Shown: piece by piece, positions 11,360-32,465 of the stretch
How the letters are laid out: the number at the start of each line of letters is the position of its first letter
Position numbering within the stretch: position 1 is the stretch's first letter
Source: Candidatus Zixiibacteriota bacterium
GTDB taxonomy: Bacteria > Zixibacteria > MSB-5A5 > GN15 > PGXB01
Reading direction: 5' to 3'
Length of the DNA stretch: 48,487 nucleotides
Assembly (NCBI GenBank): GCA_040753495.1
Contig: JBFMEF010000004.1
Span: 1-48,487, forward strand
The notes under the pieces: generated by a model
Told to the model about the DNA's origin: nothing
Seen by the model: only the letters and a program-made list of their open reading frames with translations
Databases searched by the model: none
Translations under genes and position numbers: made by a program

Positions 11360-11557
11360 GTCGCCAAAATTAATTTCCGATTGATGTTAAAAATTTGAAC
11401 GGATAATCCGATAACATCAAAGAACATACCGTGCCCAGCCGGGAGAATTATGAGAAGCCCTTATTGAGTCAAGCGGATAGATGTTAATTTTAGGGAATTA
11501 ATGACGATAAGAAATTAAGATGAACAAAAAGAGCCTTATTAAATAGAAGAGACGCCT

Positions 11558-29039: not shown

Positions 29040-30662
29040 TCATTTGACGACAGAGGCGGGATGCACTATCTCGCCTTTAAGAGCGCTGGCGGCGCAGGTC
29101 GCCGGCGATGCCACCAGCAACTCCCCTGAATCAGCTTCTGCCTTTGGTGATGCCGACAAATATGACGACGCCAGGCATCTCTCACCTCCGGCAATAAACC
29201 CAAAATTATCGAGGGGCGGATGAAGCGCCCCAGGATTCATGACAATAGCGCCCGCCTCGATAAAGGCGCGAATTAATCCCTTTTTGAGCGCTTCCAGGTA
29301 AACCGAGCGAGACCCCGGCAGCACATAGAACCGAACATCGGGATGAATTTTCTTCCCCTTAATAATGTCCGCCGCCAGTTTCAAATCGTCAAACCGTCCG
29401 TTGGCGCAGGAACCGAGAATTATCTTTTGAACCGATGTCCCCAATAACTCTTCCACTGGCATTACTTTTCCCGAACCGAAGACACGGGCAATTTGCGGCG
29501 TTAAGGTCGTCGCCGTCAGTTCCAGTTCATCAGCATAAACCGCATCCTTGTCGGCAAGTGCCGGTCGATACGGCATCTTGGTCCGTCCGTGCAAGAATCG
29601 TCGAGTCACAGCGTCAAAAGGGAAGATTGCCGAATGCACCCCCAGGGTTGCCGATTGATGCGCCAGATTAAATCGGTCCGACATCGACAGCATCGGGACG
29701 GTTGAACCATAAAATTCAATCGCCTGTCCCTGCCAGGCGCCATTCTTGGCGTTGGCGACGAACCAGAGCGCGATATCCTGCGCCGTCACGCCCTCTTGCA
29801 TCTTGCCGTTCATGACCACTTTCACCGTCCGGGGGGTACTAAGGGAGACTTTTCCCTTAGCCCAGAGGTTAGCCATATGGGCGATACCAATATTGAATGC
29901 AAATGAGCCAATAGCGCCATGGGCAACTGCGAACTGCTCGGAGCCGGCCGCAAACTGGCCCGGAAGGACCTGGCCCCGCTCCAGAATAATCTGGTGACAC
30001 GCCCCCTCCCGGGAATCGAAAAAATGCTTGATATTCTGCCGACGGGCAAATTCGCGTACGGCAAAATAGTCAGCCGCTCTTTCCGCGGTGATGTCGGCGC
30101 CGGTCTCATTCAGGACTATAATTACCCGCCCCGGATTCCAGACAAAATTCACCCCGAGCTCCCGAAACTGCTTTACAACGGTAGATGAGTTATCGTCACA
30201 GATTGCCAGGTCCGGTTCAATCGAGACTGTTTCGCCCGGCTCCACTTTCGCTTTTTCCGCCTTTTCCGCCAGGATTTTCTGGGAGATAGTCTGTCGACCG
30301 TAGTTGGCGCGGCGGATGGCGGCGCGGCCGGAATCATCAAGATTCAGCTCCAGCTGCTCCAGTTTTAGAAAAGCCGGTTTCTCCAGGATATTATATTTGC
30401 GTCGCCAGTTGTAGAAAGCCGCCTTGGAAATGCCGATTTCCAGGCCGCAGCGGTAATCATCCCCGAAGCGCTCCCAGAGGTCGCGCACTTCACGCTCCGA
30501 AAACTTCGGAAACGTATTCCGCGGGACATTCTTTTTGCGCCGCCAGTAGGCAACCAGATGCGCCGTGACACCGCCGAGTCGCTCGGCGATTTTCTCATCG
30601 GTCTTATAGAGTCTTTGTAATTGTATTAGTTCCGCTTTGGTCGGGATTTTTGTTCGGGGCAT
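29040..30662 (-). CDS. Helix-turn-helix protein fused to a degenerate aconitase/LeuC-like domain
   Basis: A 540-residue protein. Residues 1-95 hold two helix-turn-helix-like units (TDEKIAERLGGVTAHLVAYW with RRKK; and GLEIGISKAAFYNWRRK). Residues about 120-540 follow the aconitase / isopropylmalate dehydratase large-subunit fold: ISQKILAEKA, GACHQIILERG, PRTVKVVMNGKMQEGVTAQD, LSMSDRFNLAHQ, GSCANGRFDDLKLA, ASPATCAASALKGEI. Only one of three Fe-S cysteines remains (Cys419). The usual GCxxC pair is replaced by GALHP (Ala479, Pro482). The active-site DHN is DDN (156-158), the DSHT motif is EQFA (242-245) and the SNRNFEGRQG segment is lost. So it is probably not an aconitase-type enzyme. It overlaps the HIT gene by 37 bases. 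Regulatory function is inference. Confidence 0.8.
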   Translation of the reverse strand: MPRTKIPTKAELIQLQRLYKTDEKIAERLGGVTAHLVAYWRRKKNVPRNTFPKFSEREVRDLWERFGDDYRCGLEIGISKAAFYNWRRKYNILEKPAFLKLEQLELNLDDSGRAAIRRANYGRQTISQKILAEKAEKAKVEPGETVSIEPDLAICDDNSSTVVKQFRELGVNFVWNPGRVIIVLNETGADITAERAADYFAVREFARRQNIKHFFDSREGACHQIILERGQVLPGQFAAGSEQFAVAHGAIGSFAFNIGIAHMANLWAKGKVSLSTPRTVKVVMNGKMQEGVTAQDIALWFVANAKNGAWQGQAIEFYGSTVPMLSMSDRFNLAHQSATLGVHSAIFPFDAVTRRFLHGRTKMPYRPALADKDAVYADELELTATTLTPQIARVFGSGKVMPVEELLGTSVQKIILGSCANGRFDDLKLAADIIKGKKIHPDVRFYVLPGSRSVYLEALKKGLIRAFIEAGAIVMNPGALHPPLDNFGFIAGGERCLASSYLSASPKAEADSGELLVASPATCAASALKGEIVHPASVVK

Positions 30663-31147
30663 ACCGAATCGAATCCTTTTCTCAGCATGTCATATATCAT
30701 TCCCAGATCGAATGATACCACCCTGGTTTTGCTTATCACCGGCATGAAGCTGGTGTCTTCGTTCCAGCGGGGAACTATATGCATATGAATATGCCCGGGC
30801 ACCCCGGCCCCCGAGCCACGCCCCAGGTTCATTCCTAAATTAAACGACTGCGGATTGAGTGTGAGACGGAGCACCCGCGTCGTCAATTTGACCAGTTCCA
30901 AAAATTCCGTCGATTCCTCCGCCGTCATGCTTTCCAGCGATTTGATATGCCGCTTGGGGACGACCATAACATGACCGGAGTTGTACGGGAACTTATTCAT
31001 TATGACAAATATTCTCTTGCCGCGATAGACAATCAAATCCCGGCTGTCCTGCCGGCGACGAATGCGGTTGCAGAAGATGCAACCTTTTTCTTTCTTGCCA
31101 AGAATATATTCCGACCGCCAGGGAGCCCAGATGAATTTTTCCTCCAT
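30626..31147 (-). CDS. HIT-family nucleotide hydrolase/phosphorylase
   Basis: A 173-residue histidine-triad protein. The catalytic HxHxH motif is GHIHMHIVPRW (His119, 121, 123). N-terminal Cys23 and Cys26 (CIFC) with later His residues suggest a bound zinc. Residues 50-68 are NKFPYNSGHVMVVPKRH. The N-terminal WAPWRSEYI is typical of the Ap4A-phosphorylase-like group common in actinobacteria and FCB bacteria. It probably cleaves dinucleoside polyphosphates or related nucleotides. No Shine-Dalgarno sequence precedes ATG 31147, and a -10-like TATATT lies 8 nt upstream. Confidence 0.9.
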   Translation of the reverse strand: MEEKFIWAPWRSEYILGKKEKGCIFCNRIRRRQDSRDLIVYRGKRIFVIMNKFPYNSGHVMVVPKRHIKSLESMTAEESTEFLELVKLTTRVLRLTLNPQSFNLGMNLGRGSGAGVPGHIHMHIVPRWNEDTSFMPVISKTRVVSFDLGMIYDMLRKGFDSVCPEQKSRPKRN

Positions 31148-31155
31148 AGGGCGTT

Positions 31156-31183
31156 AATATACACAAATTCCCGCCGCCGCCAA
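31156..31183 (-). promoter_or_regulatory. Candidate promoter giving a leaderless HIT mRNA
   Basis: On the minus strand TATATT (31161-31156) stands in an otherwise GC-rich stretch, 8 nt before the HIT start codon. TTGGCG (31183-31178) is a weak -35 at 16 nt. A transcript starting 6-8 nt after the -10 would have almost no leader, fitting the absence of a Shine-Dalgarno sequence. Confidence 0.4.
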
Positions 31184-31217
31184 ATGGTTTTTGCGCCGTT
31201 GAATATGATGCACCCTT

Positions 31218-31247
31218 AAAAAAAGAAGCCCCGCATATGGGGGCCTC
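31218..31247 (-). terminator. Rho-independent terminator after the lysine-rich micro-ORF
   Basis: Read on the minus strand, an 8-bp stem (GAGGCCCC with GGGGCTTC, one G-T pair) and 7-nt loop are followed by seven T. It lies 29 bases beyond the stop of the micro-ORF and upstream of the HIT gene, so the micro-ORF has its own transcription end. Confidence 0.88.
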
Positions 31248-31276
31248 TATAGCATCGAAAAGAAAATCCGTGGCGG

Positions 31277-31339
31277 TTATTTCTTGCCGCTCTTTTTGGG
31301 TTTCTTCTTTTCTTTCTTGGTCGGGGTTTTCCCTGCCAT
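31277..31339 (-). CDS. 20-residue lysine-rich micro-protein
   Basis: A 63-base ORF encodes MAGKTPTKKEKKKPKKSGKK: eleven of twenty residues are Lys, with no hydrophobic segment. A perfect GGAGGT (31351-31346) lies 6 nt before ATG. A strong terminator follows within 30 bases, and about 200 bases of leader space precede it. These three signals together support a real gene despite its size. The composition is like the tails of histone-H1-like or ribosome/nucleic-acid-binding peptides, so an acidic partner such as RNA or DNA is plausible. It lies between the YhaM-like gene and the HIT gene on the same strand. Confidence 0.6.
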   Translation of the reverse strand: MAGKTPTKKEKKKPKKSGKK

Positions 31340-31436
31340 TGTTTTACCTCCCGTAAAACGGTGTCGGCTTTTTGTGACCCACCCTCAGGCGGATCGGGGT
31401 CGAAGAGTCTTTCGCAGAATCTTCGGTTGTCGACTC

Positions 31437-31460
31437 AAAATCTTTCTTATAAAAGATTTT
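31437..31460. repeat. Perfect 9-bp inverted repeat upstream of the micro-ORF
   Basis: AAAATCTTT and AAAGATTTT flank a 6-nt centre (CTTATA). It lies about 100 bases upstream of the micro-ORF start and 80 bases after the YhaM-like stop. It is AT-only apart from one C/G pair per arm and has no neighbouring T-tract, so it fits an operator or mRNA leader hairpin better than a terminator. Confidence 0.5.
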
Positions 31461-31541
31461 CGTCAATTTTATCGACTTCTTAAATTATTTGGCAAGTATT
31501 TTTTTTGATAACCCGAATATTTGCGGCAGGTCAACCGGTCT

Positions 31542-32465
31542 TCATTCGCCAAAGTAGATGAAACGGTCAAGGAGTTTCACATATTCCGACCAGCCGGTGT
31601 CGCTCTTTTCGCGGATACGCTCAATCGCGCCCATCTTGGAATCGATTTCGTCGGCGTAAAACAGGATGAAGGCTTCCGGAATCTGCGGCACCACCGGTGA
31701 GGCATATTCAAGCAACCCCTGATGTGAAAGAATCATATGGCGCAGGCGCATCAGCAGGTTGGGCGGAAAGGACTCTATCTGCTCGGCGCGCCGCGCCACT
31801 ATATGGTCCGCCCAGCAGATATGTCCTATCAATCGCCCTTCATCGGAATAGTCAATAAATGACGTAATCTTGTACTGCGATATTTTCCCCATATCGTGAA
31901 ACAACCCGCCGCAGATGAGCAGGTCTTTATCAAGGCGGGGATAGCGCAGGGAGATATCGAGGCAGAGTTCGGCGACATTGACAGAATGCTCGGCAAGACC
32001 GCCGATATGGGCATGATGCCAGAGTTTGCCGGCTGCGGCGGTCAGATAGGCTTTAAAAAACGGCTCATCATTCCAAAAACTGTCGAGCAACTTGCGCAGA
32101 TGCCCCTTCTCCACCCTTTCGCTGAGAGCGAGAACTTTCCCCCGCAGTTCCTCTTCGGAAAATCGGGAGCGGGGGAGTATCTGCGCCAAATCATATTCCT
32201 CGCTCTTTGCCAACCGGATTTTGACCACTTTCAGCTGCGGTTTACCCCGATAGTCGCCGACGACCCCTTTGATTTTGACCACTTCCCCCTCTTTCAGCTC
32301 TTCCAGCGCCGGAAGTTCCGGTTCCCACCAGACACCCGCGATTCGTCCCGAGGCATCGCCAAACTCAAAGGTCATAAAGTTATTCCCGGAATATTCCTTC
32401 AACTCCGCCTTACGGATGCTGAGATAGGCGGTGACGGTATCATTGAGAACAAAATCTTTTATCAT
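31542..32465 (-). CDS. yhaM: OB-fold/HD-domain 3'-5' exoribonuclease, YhaM-like
   Basis: A 307-residue protein. The N-terminal OB-fold nucleic-acid-binding domain spans about 8-90 (FMTFEFGDASGRIAGVWW, VVKIKGVVGDYRGKPQL). The HD phosphohydrolase domain is about 145-290: LWHHAHIGGLAEHS, then LFHDMGK with the HD pair His190-Asp191, and later HMILSHQG. This is the arrangement of YhaM/CBF1, a metal-dependent 3'-5' exoribonuclease of Firmicutes that also occurs in other phyla. The length is close to the 314 residues of B. subtilis YhaM. It is divergent from lptF and lies upstream of the micro-ORF. Confidence 0.87.
   Translation of the reverse strand: MIKDFVLNDTVTAYLSIRKAELKEYSGNNFMTFEFGDASGRIAGVWWEPELPALEELKEGEVVKIKGVVGDYRGKPQLKVVKIRLAKSEEYDLAQILPRSRFSEEELRGKVLALSERVEKGHLRKLLDSFWNDEPFFKAYLTAAAGKLWHHAHIGGLAEHSVNVAELCLDISLRYPRLDKDLLICGGLFHDMGKISQYKITSFIDYSDEGRLIGHICWADHIVARRAEQIESFPPNLLMRLRHMILSHQGLLEYASPVVPQIPEAFILFYADEIDSKMGAIERIREKSDTGWSEYVKLLDRFIYFGE

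Follow-up and report, generated by a model that had tools for sequence, protein, structure and literature searches.

Between two larger genes of a Zixibacteria genome lies an open reading frame of only 63 bases, and the question it raises is whether so small a frame is a gene of its own and, if so, what its product could do. The frame is located on contig JBFMEF010000004.1, in a stretch of 48,487 nucleotides that was analyzed as a whole (hereafter, the window). An inspection of the letters alone (hereafter, the sequence-only reading) had proposed an independent transcription unit for a lysine-rich micro-protein, perhaps a binder of nucleic acid, or, alternatively, a leader or small RNA that also encodes a peptide.

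A lysine-rich micro-ORF with its own expression signals

The micro-ORF (31339..31277), its predicted signals and its two neighbors are all encoded on the minus strand.

31277..31339, minus strand: micro-ORF with stop codon TAA and product MAGKTPTKKEKKKPKKSGKK (translation, purifying selection, homologues)
31346..31351, minus strand: Shine-Dalgarno sequence GGAGGT, 6 nt (AAAACA) before the ATG at 31339 (sequence; conserved last 20 nt of the leader)
31437..31460, minus strand: 9-bp inverted repeat, predicted 5'-end hairpin (sequence and folding; not kept beyond the genus)
31460..31496, minus strand: predicted promoter block CTTGCCAAATAATTTAAGAAGTCGATAAAATTGACGA (80% mean pairwise identity in 6 genomes)
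31218..31248, minus strand: predicted intrinsic terminator, stem-loop 31248-31224 plus T tract
31542..32465, minus strand: upstream neighbor, OB-fold and HD protein, outside the unit (HD and tRNA_anti-codon domains)
30626..31147, minus strand: downstream neighbor, HIT-family protein, outside the unit (domain match; own promoter-like site)

The product has 20 amino acids, 10 of which are lysine (the sequence-only reading had counted 11), giving 50% Lys, a computed net charge of +9, and a single hydrophobic residue besides Met1. The window holds 266 ATG-started ORFs of 18-60 amino acids, and no other among them reaches 40% Lys. A type I toxin and an antimicrobial peptide were dropped by inspection, given the one hydrophobic residue and no membrane segment.

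The GGAGGT at 6-nt spacing was found as described, at 31351-31346 with the spacer AAAACA. The terminator was also present, with a stem-loop (31248..31224) of 9 pairs (6 G-C) followed by TTTTTT, and it begins 28 nt past the stop codon rather than the 29 given earlier. The 9-bp palindrome, previously placed about 100 bases upstream, has the arms AAAATCTTT/AAAGATTTT (31437-31445/31452-31460), lies 98 nt upstream of the ATG, and was folded as a hairpin. The set of expression signals is complete, as had been claimed, but the promoter and the minus strand had not been given: a sigma-70-like promoter, TTGCCA-18-TAAAAT (-35 TTGCCA, -10 TAAAAT), is predicted at 31495..31466, so that the palindrome would sit at the 5' end of the predicted mRNA. 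The promoter block also holds a conserved TTTAAGA in the spacer and a TTGACGA after the -10.

Upstream, the OB-fold and HD protein is one that we take to be a YhaM-like 3'-5' exoribonuclease. The promoter-like site of the HIT gene is predicted at 31183..31156, and a string like AAACCATTTG precedes this gene in several relatives (by eye; ~31160-31200 in the window). An aconitase-family protein encoded downstream (29040-30662) has an extra N-terminal region with weak HTH-like matches, and its start (MPRxKIPTKAELIQLQ) is strongly conserved in relatives.

Conservation of the unit and selection on the reading frame

A DNA-only search of 60 relatives detected the block of Shine-Dalgarno sequence and ORF in seven other genomes of the Zixibacteria family (E ≤4.2e-7), three of which also matched in a second block, at the promoter. 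The protein was present in 13 of the 15 family genomes based on a profile search, and the micro-ORF is thus conserved in related genomes, a point raised by the sequence-only reading. No member was found by pattern or profile in the other two (G012 and G014, 64% and 86% complete). The member in G010 was detected by DNA similarity and profile; the pattern misses such members because it requires GGAG before the ATG.

Mean pairwise identities were obtained from an alignment of seven loci and computed on six of them, with the same-genus G001 left out. The promoter block (0.80), the last 20 nt before the ATG (0.69), and the first 16 codons of the ORF (0.88) were well conserved, whereas the palindrome (0.35), the remaining 5' leader (0.33), and the spacer after the stop codon (0.39) were not. 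The terminator region had an identity of 0.55, and a G+C-rich hairpin with a T-rich tail was found 7-33 nt past the stop in 13/13 family loci, with changing sequence. These data bear out the independent transcription unit proposed for a micro-protein, as promoter block, Shine-Dalgarno sequence, ORF, and terminator are kept and the untranslated spacers are not. We also checked for the reverse case, in which the hairpins are kept and the frame is lost, and found the opposite: the frame is kept and the palindrome is lost beyond the genus.

Exactly one copy of the promoter block occurs per genome in 7/7 genomes (≤3 mismatches; reversed control 0), and with its TTTAAGA and TTGACGA it is possibly the site of a dedicated regulator. 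The remaining six family loci are without this block as judged by eye. Some of them have another promoter-like sequence closer to the ORF (by eye).

Over the 14 aligned codons of the 13 loci, variable positions included all 14 third positions, four first positions, and four second positions. The pN/pS ratio was 0.10 in frame, and pN exceeded pS in both alternative frames of this strand. The conservation of the core is biased in this set, since pattern or profile searches that prefer the core residues supplied most of the loci. For the eight sequences obtained from DNA similarity alone (the own genome and the seven others), the variable columns were 3/3/12 at first, second, and third positions (binomial p 0.004), and 0, 0, and 7 in the nine core codons. 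Such substitution patterns are the signature of a translated and selected protein, and on these grounds the micro-ORF is almost certainly a real translated gene. The strong purifying selection in relatives, together with the unique Lys content in the window, confirmed that the site is more than chance.

The same comparisons bear on the alternative of a leader or small RNA, which is disfavored because the substitutions are codon-structured and neither the leader nor the post-stop spacer is conserved. A small regulatory RNA with an incidental ORF would fit the folding of the transcript region, which is better than that of shuffles (z -5.0). However, the leader structure is mostly not conserved, the substitutions track the codons, and Rfam yielded nothing usable, its best match (E 0.53, a human lncRNA family) scoring well short of the gathering threshold. 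The small-RNA reading is thereby close to refuted.

It is also highly improbable that the micro-ORF is a leader peptide whose Lys codons act as the sensor of an attenuator, with the terminator controlling the HIT gene. The order that such a device would need, a Lys-rich ORF, then the terminator, then the HIT gene, is seen in most family genomes; however, the next gene is another one in G010 and G002, homologues in other phyla have other neighbors, and the HIT gene has a promoter-like site of its own. Glu, Pro, and Gly are conserved about as strictly as Lys in the 13 loci and their codons vary freely, and no conserved alternative antiterminator structure was found, as the post-stop spacer is at background identity. 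Leader peptides are recognized by a constant, regulated gene downstream and by alternative RNA structures or sensor codons that are conserved, and these loci showed none of these features.

KKPKK micro-proteins in other phyla

We refer to proteins of this type as KKPKK micro-proteins (a name coined here). They have 12-50 residues, usually an M[AGP] start, and a [KR]E-x-[KR]KPKK core in which Glu is mostly residue 9-11, followed by a variable and often basic C-terminus. The product in the window fits this definition, with the core KKEKKKPKK at residues 8-16 and Glu at 10. Products are often longer in Chloroflexota, Bacillota, and Alphaproteobacteria.

A strict scan for a Shine-Dalgarno sequence, ATG, and KKEKKKPKK, run on 84,980 species genomes, gave 26 loci, 25 of which decoded to ORFs of 12-50 amino acids; L068 was judged a chance match and left out, and in L056 and L061 the pattern-matched ATG is out of frame and an in-frame ATG is found further on. 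The record titles included Zixibacteria/GN15, Chloroflexi (including Thermoflexus), Bacillota/Firmicutes, Acidobacteria, Hebobacteria, Aceula, Spirochaetia, a delta-proteobacterium, and an Ignavibacterium sp. (L069, DYGG01000006.1).

A relaxed core (E-x-[KR]KPKK) was also scanned for, and its counts are not comparable with those of the strict scan, whose core is narrower. It was detected in 21/132 Zixibacteria genomes, of which 20 were family-like (reversed control 0; G064 and a second match in G002 judged chance and left out). In Chloroflexota, 33/350 genomes had a match and 32 were kept (reversed control 3), with G407 left out for a stop inside the core and the doubtful G332 (Glu at residue 5) counted. 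The phylum of the Acidobacteria record gave 9/346, with 6 kept (reversed control 4; G633, G540, and G797 judged chance and left out), and that of the delta-proteobacterial record gave 4/345, with only the starting genome kept (control 1). The distribution is patchy, with about 20/132 Zixibacteria genomes, which speaks against a core ribosomal protein, though the search pattern was strict.

These members quite probably belong to one family across phyla. If they did not, Lys-rich micro-ORFs would have arisen by convergence in the different phyla and the family would be restricted to the Zixibacteria set, which we consider unlikely. Convergence would be favored by a core of only 8-9 residues, a biased composition, the lack of common neighbors, and the weak scores of a profile built from 24 members (best 31.8 bits; the match to a sigma-factor-like protein in G021 was judged chance and left out). 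Against it, a composition-matched scrambled core was found in 0/350 Chloroflexota genomes versus 33/350 for the native core (Fisher test on 32 vs 0, p = 2e-10). Moreover, the residue before Glu, which is free in the pattern, was K/R in 37/37 distinct short matches having a locus in three relaxed scans (Zixibacteria, Chloroflexota, and the phylum of the Acidobacteria record; L114, with an internal stop, and family f1 loci excluded). The distance of the core from the start codon is similar among members, and one family-like copy per genome was found in the genomes examined in the relaxed scans.

Genomic context on chromosomes, plasmids, and viral contigs

No neighbor was common to the members across phyla in the loci examined, so the context does not name a function. 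An RNase III gene was found upstream of the micro-ORF at four Chloroflexota loci (L116, L118, L119, and L121; 10 upstream proteins scanned), and genes for SSB and an OGG-type DNA glycosylase were upstream in two lineages. Other neighbors were prs, an ABC-F-like ATPase, ribosomal protein L25, MreB, a protein of the DAHP synthase family, an M50 peptidase, and a sigma-54 activator. The micro-ORF is followed by an acylphosphatase gene in L117 and L118, and by a radical SAM gene in L121.

The alphaproteobacterial members, including the plasmid copies, are annotated as hypothetical proteins (WP_259060943.1, WP_268238483.1, WP_096740492.1, and WP_302058746.1). WP_259060943.1 (MAKGEQRGNREAKKPKKEKTKTIAAAPSTKGTVGSNIGSKK) shares with the micro-protein in the window the type of start, the [KR]E-x-KKPKK core, and the place of this core in the chain, whereas the alphaproteobacterial proteins are longer and have an Ala/Pro-rich tail. 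On plasmids of Roseovarius indicus (L283, 3001-3135) and Phaeobacter porticola (L284, 2501-2635), the member is located 106 and 110 nt after groEL, respectively, and the alphaproteobacterial-type L186 also follows a GroEL gene, with the three loci at 105-110 nt. This adjacency is a hint of a heat-stress context. The Microvirga member has a groEL gene on the opposite strand at most 2 kb away, and no groEL was present in the stretch covered around the Loktanella member.

At least 80 loci were detected on viral contigs. Among the 80 examined, 36 had short in-frame ORFs, only part of which were family-like, and many relaxed-core matches on these contigs were unrelated proteins, an example of how short Lys-rich motifs can arise by convergence. 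In L220, 31 nt separate a family-like micro-ORF (~11380-11439) from the gene for a phage major head protein. The micro-ORF of L235, also on a viral contig, is beside a ribonucleotide reductase gene, and that of L187 is near a head-scaffold-like gene.

Proposed function

We favor the reading, with a probability of about 0.6, that this monocistronic gene encodes a strongly basic micro-protein of 20 residues that is probably unstructured, belongs to a bacteria-wide family, and would act as a disordered nucleic-acid-binding polycation. An extended peptide binding nucleic acid is the most economical interpretation of 50% Lys, a charge of +9, and almost no hydrophobic residue, and we put nucleic-acid binding as such at slightly better than even odds. 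In this model, the clustered Lys residues would bind to phosphates, and Glu and Pro, both invariant, would set the register and hold the chain extended. The target would most likely be RNA or a ribonucleoprotein such as the ribosome, with DNA as the second choice; the grounds for this preference are weak, namely the RNase III, ABC-F-like ATPase, and ribosomal protein L25 genes among the neighbors. Binding to the ribosome specifically is a tentative proposal, and rather doubtful.

If DNA were the target, the peptide could be nucleoid-associated, with a Lys-Pro-Lys tail that compacts or shields DNA, presumably in the manner of the basic tails of histone H1 or bacterial HU variants. We regard DNA condensation as unlikely. 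The basic, Lys-rich composition would suit it, as would the position of the L220 micro-ORF beside the head protein gene, where condensation would make sense, and the SSB and glycosylase genes upstream in two lineages. Elsewhere, however, the RNase III, ABC-F-like ATPase, prs, and GroEL neighbors offer nothing specific to DNA.

Gene finders routinely drop genes shorter than 30 codons, and BLAST filters mask Lys-rich ones. The polycation proposed here may, with some optimism, represent an unrecognized RNA- or ribosome-binding factor among the smallest independently transcribed proteins, distributed across bacteria and carried on plasmids and phages; annotation would have overlooked such a family because its members often have fewer than 30 residues and are too Lys-rich for standard searches. 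A selected coding unit of 63 bases that recurs in many phyla is a clean and testable case, and the plasmid and phage copies of the motif would allow its role to be studied in Alphaproteobacteria commonly grown in the laboratory. Should it turn out to associate with ribosomes or RNA, the peptide would rank with the smallest RNP components known from bacteria.

Comparison with known families and systems

Searches against Pfam, NCBIfam, and PHROGs gave no match at curated cut-offs, with HMMER filters being weak on short biased sequences; two sub-threshold Pfam matches were both to unrelated families. The family profile (A1) had no match in PDB at E up to 10, and an alphaproteobacterial-type member had one weak match (E 2.4), to large ribosomal protein L6; none of the solved ribosomes is thus known to include such a peptide. 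The motif strings were absent from the full-text literature searched, which held no description of such a family; an earlier description is possible, as subscription papers were mostly outside this search. The KKPKK micro-proteins are thus apparently undescribed.

Among leader peptides, the candidate SEP5 of Sinorhizobium meliloti is located in the 5' leader of a biosynthetic gene, according to excerpts of its description (PMC10117765). It resembles the micro-ORF in being a small ORF with a Lys cluster. Unlike SEP5, the gene in the window stands alone as a monocistronic unit, and the codons used for its Lys residues vary among relatives.

Small ribosomal proteins offer closer parallels. The actinobacterial bL37, as portrayed in excerpts of PMC10085706, is a small, lineage-restricted ribosomal protein that was earlier listed as hypothetical. 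The KKPKK proteins are likewise small, lineage-restricted, and hypothetical, and the PDB search found no sequence relation between the two. The same excerpts describe bS22 as a helical protein of 33 amino acids with a large share of hydrophobic residues, and give 55-65% positively charged residues for bS22/eL41 (PMC10085706); the computed value is 50-59% in the Zixibacteria and Acidobacteria members. The KKPKK micro-proteins share with bS22/eL41 a tiny size, an own short gene, a highly basic composition, and an occurrence in only some bacteria. They differ from bS22, as far as those excerpts describe it, in the Pro of the invariant core, the dominance of Lys, and the near absence of hydrophobic residues, and the PDB search found no sequence similarity to solved structures. 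By analogy, the nearest known kind would be a ribosomal micro-protein of the bS22/eL41 type, alike in size and charge and different in sequence.
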